Assembly (NCBI GenBank): GCA_012837765.1
Contig: DUQO01000062.1
Span: 1-33,893 of the forward strand
Direction: 5' to 3'
Length of the DNA stretch: 33,893 nucleotides
Source of the DNA: Mollicutes bacterium
GTDB lineage: Bacteria; Bacillota_I; Bacilli_A; RF39; UBA660
Shown: positions 16,766 through 27,026 of the stretch, one piece after another
Numbering within the stretch: the stretch's first letter is position 1
How the letters are laid out: the number at the start of each line of letters is the position of its first letter
Translations under genes and position numbers: made by a program
Notes under the pieces: generated by a model
The model's database searches: none
What the model saw: only the letters and a program-made list of their open reading frames with translations
Told to the model about the DNA's origin: nothing

Positions 16766-17839
16766 TTATTCTTTTGCCTTTTTAGTAATTTTACCTATAC
16801 TTGAAGTGATTTCATTACGGTAAAAACGGTACGTAGTAAGCATTATAATAGTTAATGGAAGAGCTAAAATAATTCCTTTTATACCTGCTATAGCGCCTCC
16901 TGCAAAAACTGCAAAAATAGATAATAATGTTGGTATTTGATTTGACTTATTATATATTTTTGGTGAAGTAATATATCCATCAATATTTGGAAAAATAATA
17001 GATACTATAATAGTAAAAATCAATAATTTAGTATTAATAACAGAAGCTGTTATAACAGCAATTAAATTTGTAACAATACCACCAAAATATGGAATAATAG
17101 TTCCAACCGCAGATAACAATCCAAGCAGTAAATAATGAGGATGACCTATTAAATAGAAAACTGTTGTATATTGAATAAATATTATTAGAGCATATAATGC
17201 AAACGCATTAACATAATTATGTATAGCATCATCTAATTTTCTAAAATATCTTAAAGTTTTTTTATTTTTTCTATTCTCTAAGTACCTTTCAAATATATTC
17301 CTAATATTTTCCATATCTGATAGGAAGTAAACAGCAACAATAATGATAATAATAGTCTTTGAAATGATACCTAATGATTGATTTATTATACTTATAAATC
17401 CATCTGATATCCCCTTACCTAAACTACTTGTTATTTGATATGAAACATCAGATATTGCCTCTTTTAATCCTACTAGGTTAACGTCATATTTGACAGATAA
17501 ATCTTGAATAAATTTGATCAATGATGAGAATAACGAAGTTGTTTGTTCAAAAATAAGTGGTAAAATATTAGGAATTAAAAGCCATAATATAAAGCTTATA
17601 AAAAGAACAATGACAATACAGATAATAATCAGTGCTACTGATTTAGGCACTCCTTTTCTTATTAATGATTTTAATAGTGGATGAAGAACATATGCAATAC
17701 CAAAAGCTATTACAAAAGGAAGAAGAACATCAACAACTTTTTTCAATACTCCCATCCACAAATCCTTCATCAGCCAAATAAGAAATATAATTATTACGAT
17801 TAACAAAGTGTTTATCAACTTATAATTTATTTTTTTCAT
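16766..17839 (-). CDS. AI-2E family transporter (PerM/YtvI-like)
   Basis: 357 residues, typical for the family. About seven or eight membrane segments arranged in the AI-2E pattern: a pair at the N-terminus (LINTLLIVIIIFLIWLM; VDVLLPFVIAFGIAYVLHPL), another near 65-90, a long extracytoplasmic stretch (about 90-150), then a clustered C-terminal half. The C-terminal half contains IGHPHYLLLGLLSAVGTIIPYFGG, the conserved Pro-Tyr-Gly-Gly signature, and GYITSPKIYNKSNQIP. These proteins export or exchange small solutes; some are sodium/proton antiporters, and the family name does not prove AI-2 transport. The gene overlaps the dtd end by 20 bases and closes the operon. AGGAAGG precedes the start. 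Confidence 0.9.
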   Translation of the reverse strand: MKKINYKLINTLLIVIIIFLIWLMKDLWMGVLKKVVDVLLPFVIAFGIAYVLHPLLKSLIRKGVPKSVALIIICIVIVLFISFILWLLIPNILPLIFEQTTSLFSSLIKFIQDLSVKYDVNLVGLKEAISDVSYQITSSLGKGISDGFISIINQSLGIISKTIIIIIVAVYFLSDMENIRNIFERYLENRKNKKTLRYFRKLDDAIHNYVNAFALYALIIFIQYTTVFYLIGHPHYLLLGLLSAVGTIIPYFGGIVTNLIAVITASVINTKLLIFTIIVSIIFPNIDGYITSPKIYNKSNQIPTLLSIFAVFAGGAIAGIKGIILALPLTIIMLTTYRFYRNEITSSIGKITKKAKE

Positions 17840-18287
17840 AACACCCTTCCTTACTATCTATAATAATAGTTACTGGACCATCATTGATAAGAGAAACCTT
17901 CATATCTGCACCAAAAACACCTTCTTGTACTTTAAGTCCTTCACTCCTTAAGAGTTCATTAAACTTTTCATATAATGCTTTTGATTCATCATATTTCATT
18001 GCCATATCATAACTTGGTCTTCGTCCTTTTGAAGTGTTAGCATGTAAGGTAAACTGAGAAATTGATAAGATAGATCCTCCACTATTATTTATATCTACAT
18101 TCATTATACCATTTTCATCATCAAATAATCTTATAAATTTAATTTTTTTTACAATATAATTTAAATCTTCTATTGTATCCCCATGAGTAAAACCTACTAA
18201 TAAGACAAATCCTTTATCTATTTGACCAACAATCTTGTTATCTACTGTAACGCTAGCTTCACTAACTCTTTGTATTATCACTCTCAT
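17820..18287 (-). CDS. dtd: D-aminoacyl-tRNA deacylase
   Basis: 155 residues, normal length. Dtd removes D-amino acids, and glycine from mischarged tRNA-Ala, giving chiral proofreading in the cytoplasm. It begins with MRVIIQRVSEASVTVDN. The two active-site signatures are present: LSISQFTLHANTSKGRRPSY (SQFTL motif) and, near the C-terminus, SLINDGPVTIIID (NxGPVT motif). The ATG overlaps the rel stop as ATGA, and the 3' end overlaps the transporter start, so translation is coupled across three genes. rel-dtd adjacency is widespread in Bacillota and supports the identification of the upstream gene. Confidence 0.97.
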   Translation of the reverse strand: MRVIIQRVSEASVTVDNKIVGQIDKGFVLLVGFTHGDTIEDLNYIVKKIKFIRLFDDENGIMNVDINNSGGSILSISQFTLHANTSKGRRPSYDMAMKYDESKALYEKFNELLRSEGLKVQEGVFGADMKVSLINDGPVTIIIDSKEGCYEKNKL

Positions 18288-20443
18288 TTTGTAATACGCT
18301 CCACTTTATGAATATAAGGTATACTTAAAACATCATTTATAAACTTATCTAATTTTGTCTTATCAGGAGCTAAAACGATGATATCGTATACAATATGATC
18401 AAGATGATTGATTGTGTTGATCGCTTGGATATTGATGTTTAGATTAGTTGTTTTACCTATTATTTCTAACAAAAGATTTTCTTTTTGTTCTGCTTCAATT
18501 AAGATGTTAGTAGGCCACCCCTTATCGATATTTTCATTCCATTCAACATTAACAATTCTCTCTTCAACATCAGCTATGTTATGACAAATACTACGATGTA
18601 CAGTTATACCATGTCCTTTAGTAATATAACCAATAATATCATCACCTTTTATTGGCTTACAGCAACTTGCTAATGTTACTTTAATTTCATCTACACCTTC
18701 AACTAATACATCGTTTTTACTGACAGTTGGTTTTACATTTGGTGAAGATAATTTTTCTAATACTATTGTTTCTTTTGTTTTTGGTTCTTTATTAATTAGA
18801 TTGATTACATAAAGAGGTGTAAATTTAGATGAACCAATACTACGATATATATCTTCAATAGATGCTAAATTAAGTGTATCTAGCAAATAATCAATATTTT
18901 TATCTGTAAGGAAGGTTGAGAAAGTAAGTTTTTGTTTACGAAGCTCTTTTTGAAGCATTTCCTCACCACGTTTTATAGCTTCGTCCTTATCAATCTTACT
19001 AAAGAAATTCTTAATTTTTGTTTTAGCTTGAGCTGTTTTAGCTATATTTAACCATTCACGGTTTGGACCCTTGGAATTTTTATTAACATTAATTTTGACA
19101 ATATCGCCATCTTTTAATTCATAGTCAAGTGGTACTATCATTTCATTTACGATAGCTCCAACCATTTTGTCTCCTACTCCCGTATGTACACGATATGCAA
19201 AATCAATTGGAGTACTACCTACTGGCAATTCTATAACATCACCCTTAGGTGTAAATAAATATATATTATCATCTAACACTTCACTTTTTACATTACTTGC
19301 AAATTCTTCAGGATTATTATCCTCGTTATTAAGTTCAATAAGTGATCTAAACATTTGAAGTTTTTGCTCCATAACATTTTGTAAAGATTTACTTCCATCA
19401 GTATGTTCTTTATATGACCAATGTGACGCGATACCATATTCAGCTATCTGATCCATTTCATATGTTCTAATTTGAATTTCAAAAAGGTTTCCATCCACAC
19501 CAAAAATAGTGGTATGAAGTGATTGATACATATTTTCTTTAGGCATTGCTATATAATCTTTAAATCTTTTAGGAACAGGTTTAAACTTTGAATGAATAAG
19601 ACCTAAAGCTAGATAACAATTTTGCTCTGTTTCAACATATACACGAAGTGCTAAAATATCATATATTTCCTTAAAACGTCTTCCCTTTTGCATTTTATTA
19701 TAAATACTATATATACTTTTAGAACGACCTTTTATTTCATGTTTAATATTATTTTGAAGAAGAATATTAGAAATATTTTCTTTCATTTCTTTAATAGCAT
19801 TGTCTCGTTCTACTTTAGTATTATTTAATTTCTTTACAATATCATAATATGCATCTGGTTTATAATAACGAAGTGATAAATCTTCTAACTCACTTTTAAT
19901 ATGATATATACCAAGACGATGGGCTATAGGGGCTAAAATTTCCAATGTTTCTTTAGCTTTTTCCTTTTGCTTATTTTCAGGTATTGCCCACAAAGTACGC
20001 ATATTATGAAGACGATCAGCTAATTTGATATAAATTACCCTAACATCTTCACAAAGACCAACCAAGATCTTTTTATAATAAGTAATTGTATAATTACTAT
20101 CAGCATTAAACGATAATTTGTTTATTTTTGAAATACTACTTACTAAATTACTTATTTCTTCACCAAATACTGATTTTACTTCATCAATAGTGGTGTTATA
20201 ATCTAACACTTCATGAAGTAAGGCTGATGAAATAGTTTGATAATCACTTTTTAATTCAGTTAAAATCATAGCAACATTTAAATGGTGATCAATCAAACCA
20301 TTACCATCAAGTCTTTTTTCACCAAAATATTTGGCATTTCCAAATTCATAAGCTTTCTTTATTATTTCTAAGTCTTTTTTATCTTTTGTATAAGTACTTA
20401 CTTTAGAAAGCAAATCATCAAATACAATTGTTTTGTTTTCCAT
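18284..20443 (-). CDS. rel: Long Rel: (p)ppGpp synthetase with degenerate hydrolase site
   Basis: 719 residues with the full Rel layout: HD hydrolase (about 25-200), synthetase (about 225-345), TGS (392-452), helical region, zinc-finger domain (C594, C595, H616, C620) and ACT/RRM (645-719). Synthetase residues are intact: R240 and K242 (GRSKSIYSIYNKM), D262, RFKD (293-296), N304, Y306, H310 and E322 (FEIQIRT). The hydrolase site is not. R44, H53 and H77 remain, but D78 is Glu, E81 is Asp and D82 is Tyr (LLHEVLDYN against the usual LHDVxEDT), and the DGVTK segment reads SSISK; D143 (ADRLHNMRTL) remains. So it probably makes but does not efficiently degrade (p)ppGpp. AAGGAG precedes the start, 35 bases after secDF. 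Compare the short paralogue at 24769-26244. Confidence 0.95.
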   Translation of the reverse strand: MENKTIVFDDLLSKVSTYTKDKKDLEIIKKAYEFGNAKYFGEKRLDGNGLIDHHLNVAMILTELKSDYQTISSALLHEVLDYNTTIDEVKSVFGEEISNLVSSISKINKLSFNADSNYTITYYKKILVGLCEDVRVIYIKLADRLHNMRTLWAIPENKQKEKAKETLEILAPIAHRLGIYHIKSELEDLSLRYYKPDAYYDIVKKLNNTKVERDNAIKEMKENISNILLQNNIKHEIKGRSKSIYSIYNKMQKGRRFKEIYDILALRVYVETEQNCYLALGLIHSKFKPVPKRFKDYIAMPKENMYQSLHTTIFGVDGNLFEIQIRTYEMDQIAEYGIASHWSYKEHTDGSKSLQNVMEQKLQMFRSLIELNNEDNNPEEFASNVKSEVLDDNIYLFTPKGDVIELPVGSTPIDFAYRVHTGVGDKMVGAIVNEMIVPLDYELKDGDIVKINVNKNSKGPNREWLNIAKTAQAKTKIKNFFSKIDKDEAIKRGEEMLQKELRKQKLTFSTFLTDKNIDYLLDTLNLASIEDIYRSIGSSKFTPLYVINLINKEPKTKETIVLEKLSSPNVKPTVSKNDVLVEGVDEIKVTLASCCKPIKGDDIIGYITKGHGITVHRSICHNIADVEERIVNVEWNENIDKGWPTNILIEAEQKENLLLEIIGKTTNLNINIQAINTINHLDHIVYDIIVLAPDKTKLDKFINDVLSIPYIHKVERITK

Positions 20444-20478
20444 ATAGATAACTCCTTATCTGTAAAAGGTATAGTCAC

Positions 20479-22740
20479 TTATGAATTAATTCCCTTTATT
20501 GATAATTCATCAAGTCTATCTTTATATACCTTTTTATTTTCAGCTACTTTGCCAATGTTCTTTGATTCTAAAAAATACCATAATTGAGGAGCTAGAAAAA
20601 TAGTAGAATAAACACCTGCAGCTAATCCTATCATAATAGCTATATTGAAGTTGTTTATTTCATAAGCTCCTAGAAACACCAATGAAACAATTGGGAACAT
20701 TACAGTTGTAGTTGTAAAGACAGTTCTTGTTAAAGTACTTCTTAAACTATCATTTACAATGTTTTTTAACACTTCTTTATTTGGAATAATATTCTTATGT
20801 TTATCTTTTATTGTTTCTCTAATACGGTCAAATATAACGATTGTATCATTGATTGAATAACCAATAATAGTTAAAATAGCAGCTATAAAAATAACTGAGA
20901 CCTCAAGCTTAAAGATTGCAAAAAAGGCAACAATCAATAACACATCATGTACAAGCGCTATAATAGAGGAAATAGCATATGTAAATTTAAATCTAAATGA
21001 AACATAAATTATCATTCCAACAAGCGATAATAGAACAGCAAAGAATGCATTTTTAGTTAGTTCTTGTTTTACAATGTTTGATACAACCCCAATTTCAACA
21101 TCGGCATTATATTTTTTAGTAAAATAATCATTTACTTGTTCTGCTTTTTCTTTATTTAATACCTCATCTAATTTAAGATAAACAGAATTATTATCGATAT
21201 TATCCATTTCCATAGTTTCAATATTTAATTCTTTAATATCATCTTTTAAATCCTTTGCTTTTATTTGTTCTTTACTAGTTATAGTTATATCCGACCCACC
21301 TCTATAATCAATACCTAGATTAAGTCCACTAGTAAAGATAAAAGCACTTCCTATAATGAGAATTATTAAAGGTAATACTGGATGCCATTTACTATGTTTC
21401 ACAAACTCTATTTTCTTATATGGGGTTAATTTAATTGATTTTTCTTTACCCTTTGATATATCTTTTTCTTTTACCCCTATGAATAAATTATAATACTTAT
21501 CAAAGAATTTCGTTTTAACGAAAAGTTCAAGAATGTATTTAACAACAAAAACCATTACAACAATTGTTACAAAAATATTGATAATTAACATTGTTGCAAA
21601 ACCTTTAACACTACTCTCTCCTAAGAAAAATAAGATAAAGCCAACTAATAAAGTGGTTAGGTTAGCATCTAATATAGTAGAAAAAGATCTTTGATTACCT
21701 AATTTAAAGGCTTCTTTTAATGGTTTTCCAGCCCATAACTCTTCTTTAATACGTTCAAAACTTAAGATATTAGCATCAACTGCCATACCAACCCCAAGAA
21801 TTAAGGATGCTATACCTGGCAATGTTAAAACCCCACCTATTAGCCAAAATACTAGGAAGGTTAAAAATATGTAAATAACAATAACAAGACCTGCTATAAT
21901 ACCAGAAAATTTATATATTAAAGCAAAAAATATCAGAATCATTGCTATACCTATAACACCTGCTGTTAAGGTTTTATTTAAAGAATTTTCCCCAAATGTA
22001 GCGCCTACCATCTTAGATGATATTTCAGTTAGTTTAGTAGGAAGAGACCCTGAGTTAATTAAATCAACTAAAGCACCTGCTTCTTCTTTAGTAAAGTTAC
22101 CTTTAATGATAACATCACTTGCAAAAGCTTGTGAAACAGTAGCAGCTGATAAACATTTTGAAGCACTTAGTGATCCACAATTAGCTTCTTCCTTTACAAA
22201 AGTATCTTCCCCTTCGATGTAATCAATCCATATAACTATACGATTATCATCATAATCTTTTACCTTGTTTGTAACTTCATAAAATTTATCAACATCTTTA
22301 ATCGGTAATAACACAGCTGGTGCTCCACGTTCATCAGCAGTGAGTTTAACGCCTCCACCTTTTAAGACAGAACTAGTCATTAACAAATTGTCATTAGTAT
22401 CACGAAAACTCAAACTAGCAGCTTTACTTAATACATCACGAGCTTCTTCTCTATTAGTAATACCTGCTAATTTTACTCTGATACGACTATCACCTTCAAT
22501 GATGATATCAGGTTCTGAAACACCTAAAACATCTATTCTTTTACTGATTGTCTTATAGGTAGCAGTTAACATATCTTTAGTAAGTTTTTCACCTTCAAGA
22601 GGAGAAACTTCATATAAAACTTCAAATCCACCTTGTAAATCAAGACCATAGTTAATATCATTCATAAGTGGTATAAAACACAAAATCATTATACCTACTA
22701 ATGCTAATAATAAACTAAATCTAATAATTACTTTTTTCAT
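20479..22740 (-). CDS. secDF: Fused SecDF protein-translocase accessory subunit
   Basis: 753 residues, the single-chain SecDF found in Bacillota. It uses the proton gradient to complete Sec-dependent export. The SecD half (about 1-405) opens with a membrane segment and NYGLDLQGGFEVLYEV (D1 motif), has a periplasmic domain (GDSRIRVKLAGITNREEARD) and a five-helix bundle with GVGMAVDANILSFERIKEEL. The SecF half (about 430-745) repeats the pattern: LNLGIDYRGGSDI, then IIGYSINDTIVIFDRIRETI. Twelve membrane segments in total. A periplasmic Cys pair (CGSLSASKC) could form a disulfide. It lies between comN and rel, as in Bacillus. The RBS (AGAAAG) is weak. Confidence 0.97.
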   Translation of the reverse strand: MKKVIIRFSLLLALVGIMILCFIPLMNDINYGLDLQGGFEVLYEVSPLEGEKLTKDMLTATYKTISKRIDVLGVSEPDIIIEGDSRIRVKLAGITNREEARDVLSKAASLSFRDTNDNLLMTSSVLKGGGVKLTADERGAPAVLLPIKDVDKFYEVTNKVKDYDDNRIVIWIDYIEGEDTFVKEEANCGSLSASKCLSAATVSQAFASDVIIKGNFTKEEAGALVDLINSGSLPTKLTEISSKMVGATFGENSLNKTLTAGVIGIAMILIFFALIYKFSGIIAGLVIVIYIFLTFLVFWLIGGVLTLPGIASLILGVGMAVDANILSFERIKEELWAGKPLKEAFKLGNQRSFSTILDANLTTLLVGFILFFLGESSVKGFATMLIINIFVTIVVMVFVVKYILELFVKTKFFDKYYNLFIGVKEKDISKGKEKSIKLTPYKKIEFVKHSKWHPVLPLIILIIGSAFIFTSGLNLGIDYRGGSDITITSKEQIKAKDLKDDIKELNIETMEMDNIDNNSVYLKLDEVLNKEKAEQVNDYFTKKYNADVEIGVVSNIVKQELTKNAFFAVLLSLVGMIIYVSFRFKFTYAISSIIALVHDVLLIVAFFAIFKLEVSVIFIAAILTIIGYSINDTIVIFDRIRETIKDKHKNIIPNKEVLKNIVNDSLRSTLTRTVFTTTTVMFPIVSLVFLGAYEINNFNIAIMIGLAAGVYSTIFLAPQLWYFLESKNIGKVAENKKVYKDRLDELSIKGINS

Positions 22741-22758
22741 ATATACATCTTCTTTCTA

Positions 22759-22983
22759 CTATCTTTTCTTATTTAAAAATAAAGCATTTATTACATAACG
22801 AACAAGAAACGAACCAAAAGCAGCTATTAAAAAATATCCTGCAATAATTAAAAGTTCATCTTCCTTCGTTACTAACATGATAATACCAAATATTAATATA
22901 AAATATATAAAACAATATACTTTTTGTCTGTTCTTATAAAGCGTTGCTATAATTTTTCTTATAATTTCATTTTCACGATTCAT
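22759..22983 (-). CDS. Small two-helix membrane protein
   Basis: 74 residues; not recognised. A basic amphipathic N-terminus (NRENEIIRKIIATLYKNRQK) is followed by two membrane helices (VYCFIYFILIFGIIMLV; LLIIAGYFLIAAFGSFLV) separated by a short acidic turn (TKEDE), then a basic end. The start overlaps the comN stop as ATGA, with GAGGA seven bases upstream, and the gene ends 18 bases before secDF, so it is expressed with the translocase. Conserved placement suggests a role in membrane biology, but nothing identifies its function. Confidence 0.72.
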   Translation of the reverse strand: MNRENEIIRKIIATLYKNRQKVYCFIYFILIFGIIMLVTKEDELLIIAGYFLIAAFGSFLVRYVINALFLNKKR

Positions 22984-23264
22984 AGTATTTCCTCGGTTTC
23001 TTCCACAAGATTAACTTCCCTAACCACATTACTAATATTTGTTTTCACATATTTTTCAATTGCATAATTATCAACATTAAAAATATCACTTACCATTTCT
23101 GATAAAGATAAATTAGATGTTCTAACCCATTTTGTTTCTTTCAGATAATTCCATATATCTTCTTCTTTAACATAATTGATACCGACTCTTTTTAAATCAC
23201 TCTTTTTGGAAATTAGCGCTGGTTTAATCCTCGAGTATAATTCACTAAGGTTTTTAAATTCCAT
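22980..23264 (-). CDS. comN: ComN-like post-transcriptional regulator
   Basis: 94 residues from the chosen start. B. subtilis ComN (YrzD) acts post-transcriptionally on comE mRNA. The family core is visible: an N-terminal helix (LSELYSRIKPALISKKSDLK), then VKEEDIWNYLKETKWVRTSN and LSLSEMVSDIFNVDNYAIEK. It lies between secDF and a divergent spoVB homologue, as in Bacillus, which supports the assignment. The ATG at 23264 is chosen because AGGAG lies seven bases upstream; the frame is open further, to 23300. It is the first gene of the comN-secDF-rel-dtd unit. Whether this organism is competent cannot be judged here. Confidence 0.82.
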   Translation of the reverse strand: MEFKNLSELYSRIKPALISKKSDLKRVGINYVKEEDIWNYLKETKWVRTSNLSLSEMVSDIFNVDNYAIEKYVKTNISNVVREVNLVEETEEIL

Positions 23265-23305
23265 AAAATCGCTCCTTAATATTTTAATAAACAACATCAT
23301 ATATT

Positions 23306-23333
23306 ATTATAGCGTAAATTCAATATTTTTCAT
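23306..23333 (-). promoter_or_regulatory. Probable comN-secDF promoter
   Basis: On the minus strand ATGAAA (23333-23328), a 16-base spacer and TATAAT (23311-23306), 42 bases before the comN ATG. The -10 is perfect; the -35 is weak and overlaps the RBS region of the divergent flippase gene. Confidence 0.5.
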
Positions 23334-23344
23334 AGGAGAAATTT

Positions 23345-24640
23345 ATGAGAAAAAACAAATTCATTAGAGGTACAATTATCCTTATTATTGGAGGCTTTAT
23401 TAGTAAATTGCTGGGAATGGTTACAAAAATAATTACCACTAGATATATAGGTGATGAAGGAATCAGCCTTTACATGCTTATTATGCCTACTTTTTTATTG
23501 TTTCTAAATATATGTCAATTAGGTTTTCCTGTTGCTATATCTAAATTGGTTGCAGAAAATAATAAAAGTAATAAAAAAATAGTATTTTCATCTTTATCTA
23601 TTTCGTTTGTTTTAAATGTTGTCCTACTTATAATAGTATTACTTATAAGTCCTATTATAACTAAACTACTACATGAAAATAGAGTTCTATATCCTCTTAT
23701 GGCAATAGGACTGGTTTTACCTTTTGTTAGTATTTCAAGTATTATTAGAGGTTATTTCTTTGGTAAAGAGAAGATGTTTGCTCATACTACATCAAATATC
23801 TTTGAGCAAATAGTAAGATTAATATTAATTATATTTGTTACCCCAATATTATTAAAACATGGATTAGTAGCTGCTGTAACTGGAGTAGTACTATTAAATA
23901 TCATAAGTGAATTAACATCGATTGTTATTTTGATTTTTTTCTTACCTAAGAAAGTAACAATTAAAAAATCCGATATGAAACCTGATAAAACAATTATAAA
24001 AGATGTGTTAAACATAAGTATTCCTACCACTGGTTCAAGGTTGATAGGATCTATAGGTTACTTTTTAGAACCTATTATTTTAACATCTGTTTTACTTAAA
24101 GTCGGATATTCTAACACTTTCATATTAAATGAATACGGTACTTTAACAGGCTATGTTATGCCTCTTCTAATGATTCCGTCATTTTTCACACAAGCTATAG
24201 GATCAGCTTTAATTCCTGTTATTAGTAAAGGTTATTCGGATAAACACATAACATATGTTAAAAATAAAATTAAGCAAGGAGAACTATTTTCATTTATCAT
24301 AGGTATTTCTGTAACCCTAGTTATTATGTTGTGGCCTAAAACGCTTTTAAGAATTATTTTTAATACTCAAATGGGAAGTAATTATTTAAGATTTATGGCA
24401 CCATTTTATATAGCTTACTATTTACAAGTACCTTTAACTGCCGCTTTACAAGCGATGAATAGAGCGCGTGAAGCTATGATAAGTACCGTCATTGGCGTAT
24501 CTTCAAAAATAGGATTGATGATCATATTATCTTCATTAAGAGTTGGAATGTATGGATTTATCATTGCTGGTATTTCCAATATTTTTATTGTGACTATATA
24601 TAATTATATAAAGGTGAAAAGAGCATTAAATCAATCTTGA
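23345..24640 (+). CDS. SpoVB/MurJ-type lipid flippase (MOP superfamily)
   Basis: 431 residues with about 11-12 membrane segments. MOP-superfamily flippases move lipid-linked cell-wall or polysaccharide precursors across the membrane. Family features include the start KFIRGTIILIIGGFISKLLG, ITTRYIGDEGISLYMLIMPT, QLGFPVAISKLVAENNK and, mid-protein, NISIPTTGSRLIGSIGYFLE. B. subtilis SpoVB is near 518 residues, so the last membrane segments are missing here; the sequence ends cleanly at TGA with YNYIKVKRALNQS. AGGAG lies six bases before the ATG. The place next to comN and secDF is that of spoVB in Bacillus, but no sporulation gene is visible, so a vegetative flippase role is more likely. Confidence 0.88.
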   Translation: MRKNKFIRGTIILIIGGFISKLLGMVTKIITTRYIGDEGISLYMLIMPTFLLFLNICQLGFPVAISKLVAENNKSNKKIVFSSLSISFVLNVVLLIIVLLISPIITKLLHENRVLYPLMAIGLVLPFVSISSIIRGYFFGKEKMFAHTTSNIFEQIVRLILIIFVTPILLKHGLVAAVTGVVLLNIISELTSIVILIFFLPKKVTIKKSDMKPDKTIIKDVLNISIPTTGSRLIGSIGYFLEPIILTSVLLKVGYSNTFILNEYGTLTGYVMPLLMIPSFFTQAIGSALIPVISKGYSDKHITYVKNKIKQGELFSFIIGISVTLVIMLWPKTLLRIIFNTQMGSNYLRFMAPFYIAYYLQVPLTAALQAMNRAREAMISTVIGVSSKIGLMIILSSLRVGMYGFIIAGISNIFIVTIYNYIKVKRALNQS

Positions 24641-24665
24641 CAATTGGTTTTTCCTATTATAAAAT
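24637..24665 (+). promoter_or_regulatory. tRNA-Asn promoter overlapping flippase stop
   Basis: TTGACA (24637-24642), a 17-base spacer and TAAAAT (24660-24665) give a start near 24672. The -35 box includes the TGA stop codon (24638-24640) of the upstream flippase gene. Confidence 0.8.
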
Positions 24666-24673
24666 TAATTTGT

Positions 24674-24750
24674 GCCTCAATAGCTCAGCTGGTTAGAGCA
24701 CTTGACTGTTAATCAAGGGGTCCTAGGTTCAAGTCCTAGTTGAGGCGCCA
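24674..24750 (+). tRNA. tRNA-Asn (GTT), CCA encoded
   Basis: A full cloverleaf. The acceptor GCCTCAA pairs with TTGAGGC, with discriminator G and encoded CCA. The D arm is GCTC..GAGC. The anticodon arm CTTGA-CTGTTAA-TCAAG has anticodon GTT. The T arm CCTAG-GTTCAAGT-CCTAG carries the TTCAA core. It has its own promoter and terminator. Confidence 0.97.
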
Positions 24751-24759
24751 TTAATTGTG

Positions 24760-24795
24760 AAAAAAGTATTAATCATTAGGCATTAATACTTTTTT
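24760..24795. terminator. Bidirectional terminator inside the end of short rel
   Basis: AAAAAAGTATTAAT (24760-24773) and ATTAATACTTTTTT (24782-24795) form a 14-bp stem with an eight-base loop. It ends the tRNA-Asn transcript rightwards and the short rel transcript leftwards, and the rel stop codon (24771-24769) and last codons lie inside it. Confidence 0.85.
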
Positions 24796-26244
24796 GTTTG
24801 TATAAAATTTATTGATTTCTCGTTTAGCATAAGTAGTATCTGCTTTGTCGATCCAATCCAAACTAGGATTAGCCATATCATCGGTTACTATTTTAACTAT
24901 ATCCTTATTTTTTAATTTATAATCCAAATCAACATATTTATCATTTATCAAAGCACCTATCATAGTGTTTCCAATATTTTTATTGATACGATATGCAAAA
25001 TCAATTGGCGTACTACCATTTGGCAATTCTATAATTTCACCCTTTGGAGTATAAACATAAATGTTATCTGAAAACAATTCCCTTTTAGCTTGAAGAAGAA
25101 ATTCTTGATTATCTGCAGTAATCTTATCTAATTCAGAAAGGGATTGGAAAAATTGAAATTTAGTTCTTAAATCTTCCCTCATATAATTAACTGCTTCATT
25201 GCCATATTTTTTCCAGTATGACATTAACCCTTGATAAGCTATTTCATCCATGTCAAAAGTTCTTATTTGACATTGAACAACTTGCCCTTTCCTACCAACA
25301 ACAGTAGTATGAAGTGAACTATACATATTTGTTTTAGGAGATGCAATATAATCCTTAAACTTACCATCAATTGGTTTATATATAGAATGAATTAAACCCA
25401 AAACAAAATAACAGTCTTTCACATTTTCTACTATAACTTTTAATGCTAATAAATCTTGAATATCAGTAATATTTTTCTTTTTTAACATTTTATTATATAT
25501 TCCACAAATGTTTTTTATACGCATTTTTATTTCATGAGGTATTCCTTCGTTACTTAATATAGTTGAGACATTTATTAACATTTCTCCAATAATTTGATTA
25601 TTTTTTTGTCTTATCTTAGTTAATTTTAATTCCATATCCCTATACATATCAGGTTTCAAATATCTTAACGATAGATCCACCAACTCATTTTTCATTTTAA
25701 ATGCACCGATATAATACGCAAGTGGCACATATAATTCCATTGTTTCTAATGAATTTTCTTTTTGTTTAAATTCACTAAGATATTGAAGAGTTCTCATATT
25801 ATGAAGACGGTCCGCTAATTTGATAAGTAGCATTCTTATATCTTCATTCAAGCTCATAATAATTTTACGGTTATTGGTTGCAACAGCTTCTTCTTTGCTT
25901 GAAAAATTTAATTTATTTATTTTCGTTACCCCATCAACTAATGAAGCGACAGTATCGTTAAAAATAGTTGCAATATCTTCTTTAGTAAAATTTATATCTG
26001 ATGTATCTTCTATAACATCATGGAGTAAAGCTGCTGCTATAGTATCAGCATCAGCTTCATATTCAGATAAAATTAAAGCGACAGAAATAGGATGAACAAT
26101 ATATTCTTCCCCACTCTGACGCTTTTGTTCTGCATGTAAAATGTCAGCACAAAGATAAGCATTTATTATCATTTTAATAAGTGATTCATCTTTGATATAT
26201 TTTTTTATATTAAATAATAATTTTTGAAAGAGTTTATTTCCCAT
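24769..26244 (-). CDS. Short Rel homologue: intact hydrolase, degenerate synthetase
   Basis: 491 residues. Layout: HD hydrolase (about 1-200), synthetase-like domain (about 220-345), TGS (393-453) and a short tail; the helical, zinc-finger and ACT/RRM domains of long Rel are absent. The hydrolase residues are all present: R42, H51 (YIVHPISVA), H75 D76, E79 D80 (LLHDVIEDT), D145 and N149 (ADRLHNMRTL). In the synthetase part R242, K244, D264, N306, Y308 and H312 remain, but the catalytic Glu is Gln324 (QCQIRT against FEIQIRT in the long paralogue), the GRxKxxYS signature reads MRIKNICG, and AEYG reads AYQG. It is therefore probably a dedicated (p)ppGpp hydrolase, SpoT-like. ATG 26244 is chosen because AGGAG lies seven bases upstream. 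It is monocistronic, with its own strong promoter. Confidence 0.93.
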   Translation of the reverse strand: MGNKLFQKLLFNIKKYIKDESLIKMIINAYLCADILHAEQKRQSGEEYIVHPISVALILSEYEADADTIAAALLHDVIEDTSDINFTKEDIATIFNDTVASLVDGVTKINKLNFSSKEEAVATNNRKIIMSLNEDIRMLLIKLADRLHNMRTLQYLSEFKQKENSLETMELYVPLAYYIGAFKMKNELVDLSLRYLKPDMYRDMELKLTKIRQKNNQIIGEMLINVSTILSNEGIPHEIKMRIKNICGIYNKMLKKKNITDIQDLLALKVIVENVKDCYFVLGLIHSIYKPIDGKFKDYIASPKTNMYSSLHTTVVGRKGQVVQCQIRTFDMDEIAYQGLMSYWKKYGNEAVNYMREDLRTKFQFFQSLSELDKITADNQEFLLQAKRELFSDNIYVYTPKGEIIELPNGSTPIDFAYRINKNIGNTMIGALINDKYVDLDYKLKNKDIVKIVTDDMANPSLDWIDKADTTYAKREINKFYTNKKVLMPND

Positions 26245-26281: not shown

Positions 26282-26310
26282 ATAATACTATTTATTTTAT
26301 CAGTTGTCAA
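26282..26310 (-). promoter_or_regulatory. Promoter of the short rel gene
   Basis: On the minus strand TTGACA (26310-26305), a 17-base spacer and TATTAT (26287-26282), about 40 bases before the ATG at 26244. The rest of the gap to 26471 shows no gene or clear structure. Confidence 0.82.
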
Positions 26311-26471: not shown

Positions 26472-27026
26472 TTATTTTATTAAGCTATGTGTTTTTTTCG
26501 TATTATCTATATATTCCCCATTAATACAAGAATGTTCTATTTCAGATTCCTTTTCAAAAGATAAAGACATATTCTTTGATATTAAAATACTATTAACTAT
26601 ATAACTGACATTTGATAATAGAGTCAAATTATTACTATAAATTAAATTATCAAACAATGTAATACTTGGTGATTTTACTGATAAAGAATTTAACAACTCA
26701 ATTTGACTATTGTTAGTTAAAAAGATTTGACTTTCTCCATCATGACCAAAATTGGTTATTGTAACATTCCCACTAAAGCTACAGTTTTTAAATTCAACAG
26801 ACTCCATTTGACACATAAAATTCAGATTATTTAATAAGCATTTTTCAAATGTATATGTATTGTATATATCTTTCAGAAAAATTTTATACTGTTCGCCATC
26901 TTTTTCGGCAATTTTATCAAAATTGAAATTACTTATTGTATAATGTTCTCCTCTTTTTCCATTTAAATACATATCTCGCTTAGTTTTATTCTCTATATAA
27001 GATCCTAAAATTTTTTTAATATTCAT
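26472..27026 (-). CDS. Hypothetical protein coupled to addA
   Basis: 184 residues, no family recognised. After a basic N-terminus (MNIKKILGSYIENKTKRDMY) the sequence becomes a run of short beta-like segments rich in Asn, Ser, Leu and Ile (CLLNNLNFMCQMESVEFKNC, NVTITNFGHDGESQIFLTNN, SLSVKSPSITLFDNLIYSNN). This spacing resembles a right-handed beta-helix or bactofilin-like repeat protein, inferred from pattern only. It has no signal peptide or membrane segment. The start ATG shares one base with the addA stop (TAATG), so translation is coupled to AddA. The 3' gap to the short rel gene shows no clear terminator. Confidence 0.68.
   Translation of the reverse strand: MNIKKILGSYIENKTKRDMYLNGKRGEHYTISNFNFDKIAEKDGEQYKIFLKDIYNTYTFEKCLLNNLNFMCQMESVEFKNCSFSGNVTITNFGHDGESQIFLTNNSQIELLNSLSVKSPSITLFDNLIYSNNLTLLSNVSYIVNSILISKNMSLSFEKESEIEHSCINGEYIDNTKKTHSLIK

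Follow-up and report, generated by a model that had tools for sequence, protein, structure and literature searches.

The window analyzed here, a stretch of 33,893 nucleotides from a Mollicutes bacterium (contig DUQO01000062.1, GenBank assembly GCA_012837765.1), carries two genes for Rel, the enzyme that makes and destroys the starvation signal ppGpp. We think it likely that the two are paralogs, formed when Rel was duplicated once at the base of the genome's family; a short Rel would act as a dedicated ppGpp hydrolase and a long Rel as a RelA-like synthetase. RelA and SpoT are the textbook split of this make-and-destroy enzyme; they go back to one proteobacterial duplication, and the split became full in one family. 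As judged from residues, the split-pair state is found repeatedly in a large family of uncultured relatives of the window's genome and is reached by many separate losses. Our analysis covered residues, domains, phylogeny, distribution and purifying selection, from which we infer the enzymatic activities, the ribosome independence of the short protein and the separate transcription of the two genes. A sequence-only reading of the window had described the proteins as complementary products of a duplication followed by reciprocal loss, and both open reading frames lie where it had placed them.

Complementary lesions in the two Rel proteins

The long Rel (719 aa; 18284..20443, minus strand) consists of an HD domain with a broken hydrolase motif, an intact synthetase domain, TGS, a helical and zinc-finger part and ACT (HD_4, residues 31-179; RelA_SpoT, 239-348; TGS, 394-451; RelA_AH_RIS, 466-617). 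It matched TIGR00691 spoT_relA at 670.9 bits (cut-off 499.2); within its C-terminal part, PF19296 scored above its own cut-off and ACT_4 just below (25.2 vs 27). Residue numbering throughout was mapped onto B. subtilis Rel. The long protein keeps R44, H53, H77, D143 (equivalent to 144) and N147 (equivalent to 148); D78 has become Glu and the E81-D82 pair is broken, with HEVL-DYNTT in place of the normal HDVVEDTDVT. This motif (residues 74-83, ALLHEVLDYN; 20195..20224, minus strand, counted from the ATG at 20443) falls one residue short of the normal length. The sequence-only reading was correct on R44, H53, H77, E78 and the synthetase residues; its assignment of D81 and Y82 depends on where the gap is placed, the phmmer alignment putting the gap at 81 and retaining D at 82, and the E-D pair is broken under either placement. 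All synthetase residues are intact (R240, K242, D262, Y306, H310, E322). The long Rel thus falls outside the bifunctional Rel[HS] type, whose hydrolase set is R44, H53, H77-D78, E81-D82 and D144, and belongs with the synthetase-only RelA type [hS], having a degenerate HD domain beside intact synthetase and C-terminal domains. The RelA-type label, read from sequence, is a likeness in form and implies no descent from proteobacterial RelA. A predicted model of the long Rel (pLDDT 74, pTM 0.47) was too loose between domains and was left unused.

The short Rel (491 aa; 24769..26244, minus strand) has the opposite lesions: an intact HD domain, a pseudo-synthetase and TGS (HD_4, residues 31-177; RelA_SpoT, 242-345; TGS, 395-454), with the protein ending after TGS and the full C-terminal part, the helical, zinc-finger and ACT domains, absent. 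It matched TIGR00691 at 524.3 bits, above the same cut-off of 499.2. All eight residues of the hydrolase set that were checked are present (R42, H51, H75-D76, E79-D80, D145, N149). The synthetase Glu has become Gln324 (codon CAA, 25273..25275, minus strand, counted from the ATG at 26244), MRIKNICG stands in place of the GRxKxxYS signature, and a later H-W is Y-W. Mapping onto B. subtilis Rel upheld what had first been said of this protein, namely a full hydrolase set, Gln324 and a lost signature. The precedent given for the substitution also proved accurate, as E. coli SpoT E319Q shows no significant synthetase activity and normal ppGpp decay (PMC6085430). Lacking the complete synthetase set of Rel[HS] (R241, K243, D264, Y308, E324), the short Rel has the form of a hydrolase-only SpoT type [Hs], in which an intact HD domain would act beside a retained, inactive synthetase domain. 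Its predicted model (pLDDT 84.8) found Rel structures as its best fold matches, B. subtilis Rel 6yxa by E value and S. aureus Rel 7oiw by fold (TMt 0.93, rmsd about 2). We looked in residues 104-135 for the loop length that marks hydrolase specialization in A. baumannii SpoT and saw no difference.

The genome that holds the window (G000; 1.0 Mb, 93.6% complete) yielded two matches each to PF13328 and PF04607, all in the window, and this domain search of a 93.6% complete genome found no small synthetase or other RelA/SpoT homolog (RSH) hydrolase. To judge by sequence, the genome's sole RSH synthetase is the long Rel and its sole RSH hydrolase the short Rel, and, with no further enzyme of either kind found, the split appears complete. 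An assembly artifact was rejected because both genes lie on one contig, the same two lesions occur in G001, a genome of the same genus (LHEILNYD in the long Rel, Gln for the synthetase Glu in the short), and the short Rel recurs across the family. An alternative genetic code altering the key residues was also rejected, the codons being ordinary.

Distribution of the two halves across the family

We searched a sample of 193 genomes of the window genome's family (uncultured Bacillota) and fetched their Rel genes. The five synthetase residues were intact in every family long Rel (163/163). Calling a long hydrolase broken when at least two of H77, D78, E81, D82 and D144 were lost, we found 86 intact, 67 broken and 10 intermediate. 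The long Rels obtained from the class's other families were intact at all eight hydrolase positions, and no listed genome of other families, in two samples of the class, had a second Rel-like match at E <= 1e-100; the genomes in these wider searches, at class and phylum level, came from a single class, and Bacillus seems to lie outside their reach. A wider scan of genome contigs returned mainly ordinary Rels and just four likely family longs. Among single loci, one long Rel frame (L326, in G423) starts after the hydrolase motif, with a TAA inside the match; G423 has a short Rel, and G095, of the same genus, is without one.

Among the 71 short Rels sampled, a number that counts L338 (first typed as long and re-typed as short), the synthetase Glu was lost in all (Q in 67, K in 2, L in 1, R in 1), and the hydrolase set was intact in 70, the remaining one having D82E. 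Most shorts also carry R269 to K, R295 to K, E337 to S and H343 to Y. Pairwise dN/dS between shorts was 0.07-0.27 for the whole gene and 0.04-0.29 in the dead synthetase domain; because it is under purifying selection, this domain probably still has a role. The short Rel might control the long Rel through its folded pseudo-synthetase, or act on another nucleotide, and would then not be a cellular ppGpp hydrolase. K243, D264, K304, Y308 and H312 are each kept at 95% or more, so the pseudo-synthetase, selected as it is, may still bind nucleotide, whereas A. baumannii SpoT has lost GDP binding (PMC9974481), and the gene is also kept where the long hydrolase is intact. We nevertheless consider this improbable, since retention of the eight hydrolase residues in 70/71 shorts argues for the usual substrate.

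The distribution of the two halves counts against reading them as a division of labor. The short Rel was present in 37/67 genomes with a broken long hydrolase vs 32/86 with an intact one, a modest association (Fisher p 0.03) that was not significant in phylogenetically independent pairs (median p 0.63). The 32 intact-long genomes that carry a short Rel indicate that it is not solely a replacement for a lost hydrolase, and 30 of the 67 genomes with a broken long hydrolase are without a short Rel, including G028, a near relative of the window's genome. Targeted searches of G028 (L152), G064 (L309), G138 (L161), G154 (L303) and G197 (L307) found only a broken long Rel with an intact synthetase and no RSH hydrolase. 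At completeness of 87-95%, it is unlikely that all five absences are assembly gaps, and such genomes may have another ppGpp-removing enzyme, or a broken HD domain that is not fully dead. The window's own long Rel falls in a clade of 13 genomes (support 74), nine of which form an inner clade (99). All long hydrolases of the 13 are broken and only G000, G001, G170 and G113 have a short Rel, so the two halves do not depend on each other. Strict one-to-one dependence of long hydrolase loss on the short Rel is rejected by this distribution across the family. In G113, an in-frame TAG interrupts the short Rel at L047:1390-2913, and the other short copy (L336) is a 380-aa frame; this is possibly decay.

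The long Rel of the window could still be bifunctional through an altered metal site, formed by Glu78 and a shifted Asp, with the short Rel as an auxiliary hydrolase: R44, H53, H77, D144 and N148 remain, several relatives with a broken motif have no other RSH hydrolase, and relA+ E. coli without spoT is not viable (PMC6085430). We give this explanation little credence. D78, E81 and D82 do not vary among the 86 intact family longs and 21 outgroup longs, and the broken motifs decay in many unrelated ways (LHETINHG, LHDVIN, LHELDL, LSYLYDDK, LYKLLSLE and others), with deletions and with H77, D144 or R44 lost in other members, as expected of unconstrained decay.

Duplication, losses and probable movement

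We built a Rel tree, with the trait columns removed, from Bacillota Rels only: 63 shorts, 48 family longs and 17 others. The shorts formed a single clade (63/63, SH-aLRT 100), as did the 48 family longs (support 98). Because the shorts and family longs group together (99) apart from the 17 other Bacillota Rels, the duplication is placed within this lineage, which agrees with the proposal that a RelA/SpoT-like split evolved in these Bacillota and the phylogeny across related genomes that had been proposed as a check supports a duplication. For the Rels sampled, acquisition of the short Rel from other Bacillota is rejected, because the sister group of the shorts is the family's own set of longs. 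Read most simply, Rel was duplicated once at the family's base, and the short lineage was then truncated and lost its synthetase; the synthetase loss, common to all 71 shorts, was most likely a single ancestral loss. On a tree of long Rels without the HD domain, in which some branches were weakly supported and counts are approximate, the hydrolase state of the longs changed 14 times by parsimony, or was lost 16 times if loss is irreversible. Hydrolase loss in the family longs therefore occurred about 14-16 separate times, later than the short's losses. The duplication and the complementary lesions of the sequence-only reading thus stand; its single reciprocal loss event does not, given one shared loss in the shorts, repeated losses in the longs and no loss at all in 86/163 longs.

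The presence of the short Rel needs about 49 changes on the long-Rel tree. Short and long similarities disagree: G169 and G172 share 95% in the short vs 67% in the long, G077 and G169 83% vs 54%, and G003 and G172, of the same genus, 70% in the short vs 98% in the long. Because of this disagreement, and because G029, G030 and G091 carry two shorts each, transfer of the short Rel within the family is probable, with bin contamination as a caveat. It could even be mainly a mobile gene, whose pairing with a hydrolase-dead long Rel in the window is coincidence and not adaptation; that its neighbors differ between genomes fits such a history. We regard this stronger claim as rather unlikely, though deserving of serious weight. 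Some of the discord is possibly contamination (the short Rel of G172 sits on a 5 kb contig), and in G000, G001 and G170 the shorts are related to one another and the longs are likewise close, which suggests vertical descent in the window's own lineage.

In the paralog-pair reading that we favor, the short copy would have lost its synthetase (E324Q and neighbors) and all parts after TGS to become a dedicated ppGpp hydrolase. What remains of it is HD, pseudo-synthetase, core linker and TGS; with the zinc finger and ACT, through which Rel is coupled to the ribosome, both gone, it is best read as ribosome-independent. The long copy, at what would be the ancestral rel-dtd locus, would retain the synthetase and the ribosome-sensing tail, its hydrolase in the window's lineage having decayed to a pseudo-HD domain as in RelA, and is best read as a RelA-like, ribosome-activated synthetase. 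The long Rel would make ppGpp upon ribosome stalling and the short Rel would remove it, each under separate expression control. In A. baumannii, whose SpoT is hydrolase-only, the core and TGS align the HD site, and the pseudo-synthetase, zinc-finger and RRM tune it (PMC9974481); core and TGS are the very parts that the short Rel retains. Extended to the family, a horizontally shared, ribosome-uncoupled hydrolase that arose once may have relaxed selection on the Rel hydrolase, leading to a RelA-like Rel about 14-16 times, after which some lineages would have lost the dedicated hydrolase too and lived with a synthetase-only Rel and no RSH hydrolase. We offer this extension tentatively, as a scenario with somewhat less than an even chance; if true, those lineages would need either some unknown enzyme that removes ppGpp or an alarmone system that is set differently.

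Genomic surroundings and known systems

The long Rel lies in a same-strand run of a SecDF-like gene (20479..22740, minus strand; named from sequence without a family search), rel, dtd and an AI-2E-type transporter, with a gap of 35 bases before rel and overlaps after it. The dtd gene, for D-aminoacyl-tRNA deacylase (17820..18287, minus strand), overlaps the end of the long Rel. Because dtd was near rel in 60/66 loci tested in the window's family, the rel-dtd locus is most likely ancestral. Upstream of the short Rel is a gap of 227 bases containing a promoter-like site (TTGACA-17-TATTAT; 26282..26310, minus strand), a consensus match only, at 11/12, about 40 bases from the ATG. The short Rel likely has its own putative promoter; the separate control proposed for the two genes holds as regards their separate locations and is likely as regards this promoter. 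Farther upstream, on the same strand, are addA/addB-like genes and a gene for a 184-aa protein without an NCBIfam match (26472-27026, minus strand), which lies between the addA-like gene and the short Rel, adjoins the short Rel in G001 as well, and occurs in no other short-Rel locus. Downstream, a tRNA-Asn gene (24674..24750, plus strand), also present in G001, separates the short Rel from a convergent flippase-like gene; a tRNA was present in just 5/55 short-Rel loci. The window's neighbors of the short Rel are common to G001 only, and no conserved operon or mobile-element context was found for the gene, whose neighbors differ between genomes.

Several other proteins with related domains were encountered. 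In G008, L322:3-1214 encodes an HD_4 domain whose HD...ED motif is intact, joined to a P-loop kinase-like domain, and several relatives have HD proteins of similar size (about 450 aa). A 464-aa reading frame at G196:C3:105461-106438 has two RelA_SpoT synthetase domains in tandem, and the reading frame around the RelA_SpoT domain at G063:C2:4404-4742 is 939 aa long and possibly encodes a large protein other than Rel that carries a synthetase-like domain. In family f4 of the class, two Rel frames of 367-381 aa (L023, L031) have HD and synthetase intact and are too short for TGS onward. Three genomes of family f1 (G084, G101, G136), reported as 92-96% complete, had no RelA_SpoT or HD_4 match.

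Being a case of its own in Bacillota in which close relatives have lost the hydrolase many times, the family would offer replicated natural experiments on uncoupling the Rel activities. The short Rel is a naturally minimal putative hydrolase (HD, pseudo-synthetase, core and TGS) in which the core and TGS activation model can be tested. The genomes seemingly with a synthetase but without an RSH hydrolase pose a direct question, because that state is not viable in E. coli.

A split of Rel activities as such has precedent, complete in Moraxellaceae and partial in Bacteroidota. The window's pair resembles RelA[hS] and SpoT[Hs] of Moraxellaceae (Acinetobacter, Psychrobacter), a complete split with the dead domains retained (PMC3153485, PMC9974481). 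Moraxellaceae, however, belong to a different phylum, and their SpoT is full length, whereas here the hydrolase paralog stops after TGS and one family accounts for many hydrolase losses. The Moraxellaceae SpoT synthetase pocket is also badly eroded (Asp272 and Tyr329 positions; GDP binding lost), whereas here it is mainly Glu324 and a few neighbors that have changed (PMC9974481). Porphyromonas and Bacteroides, with a synthase-only Rel and RshB, likewise have a Rel duplication outside Proteobacteria and a hydrolase-degenerate partner; RshB is described as bifunctional, so the split there is partial, while here it is complete by sequence (PMC6994654). RshC of six Bacillus strains is a second Rel truncated in the helical domain, with TGS kept and the conserved-cysteine and ACT parts absent; it is classed [HS] with an ambiguous origin (PMC3153485), and we liken it to the short Rel by architecture. 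We found no report of synthetase loss in RshC or of a hydrolase-dead partner, and within the open-licence literature we did not find the Bacillota combination described, that is, a truncated hydrolase-only partner, many hydrolase losses in one family and broken relatives without a partner. Compared with the bifunctional Rel of Bacillota (B. subtilis Rel, RelSeq), both proteins have the same fold and domain order but, unlike it, each copy appears by its residues to have lost one activity.

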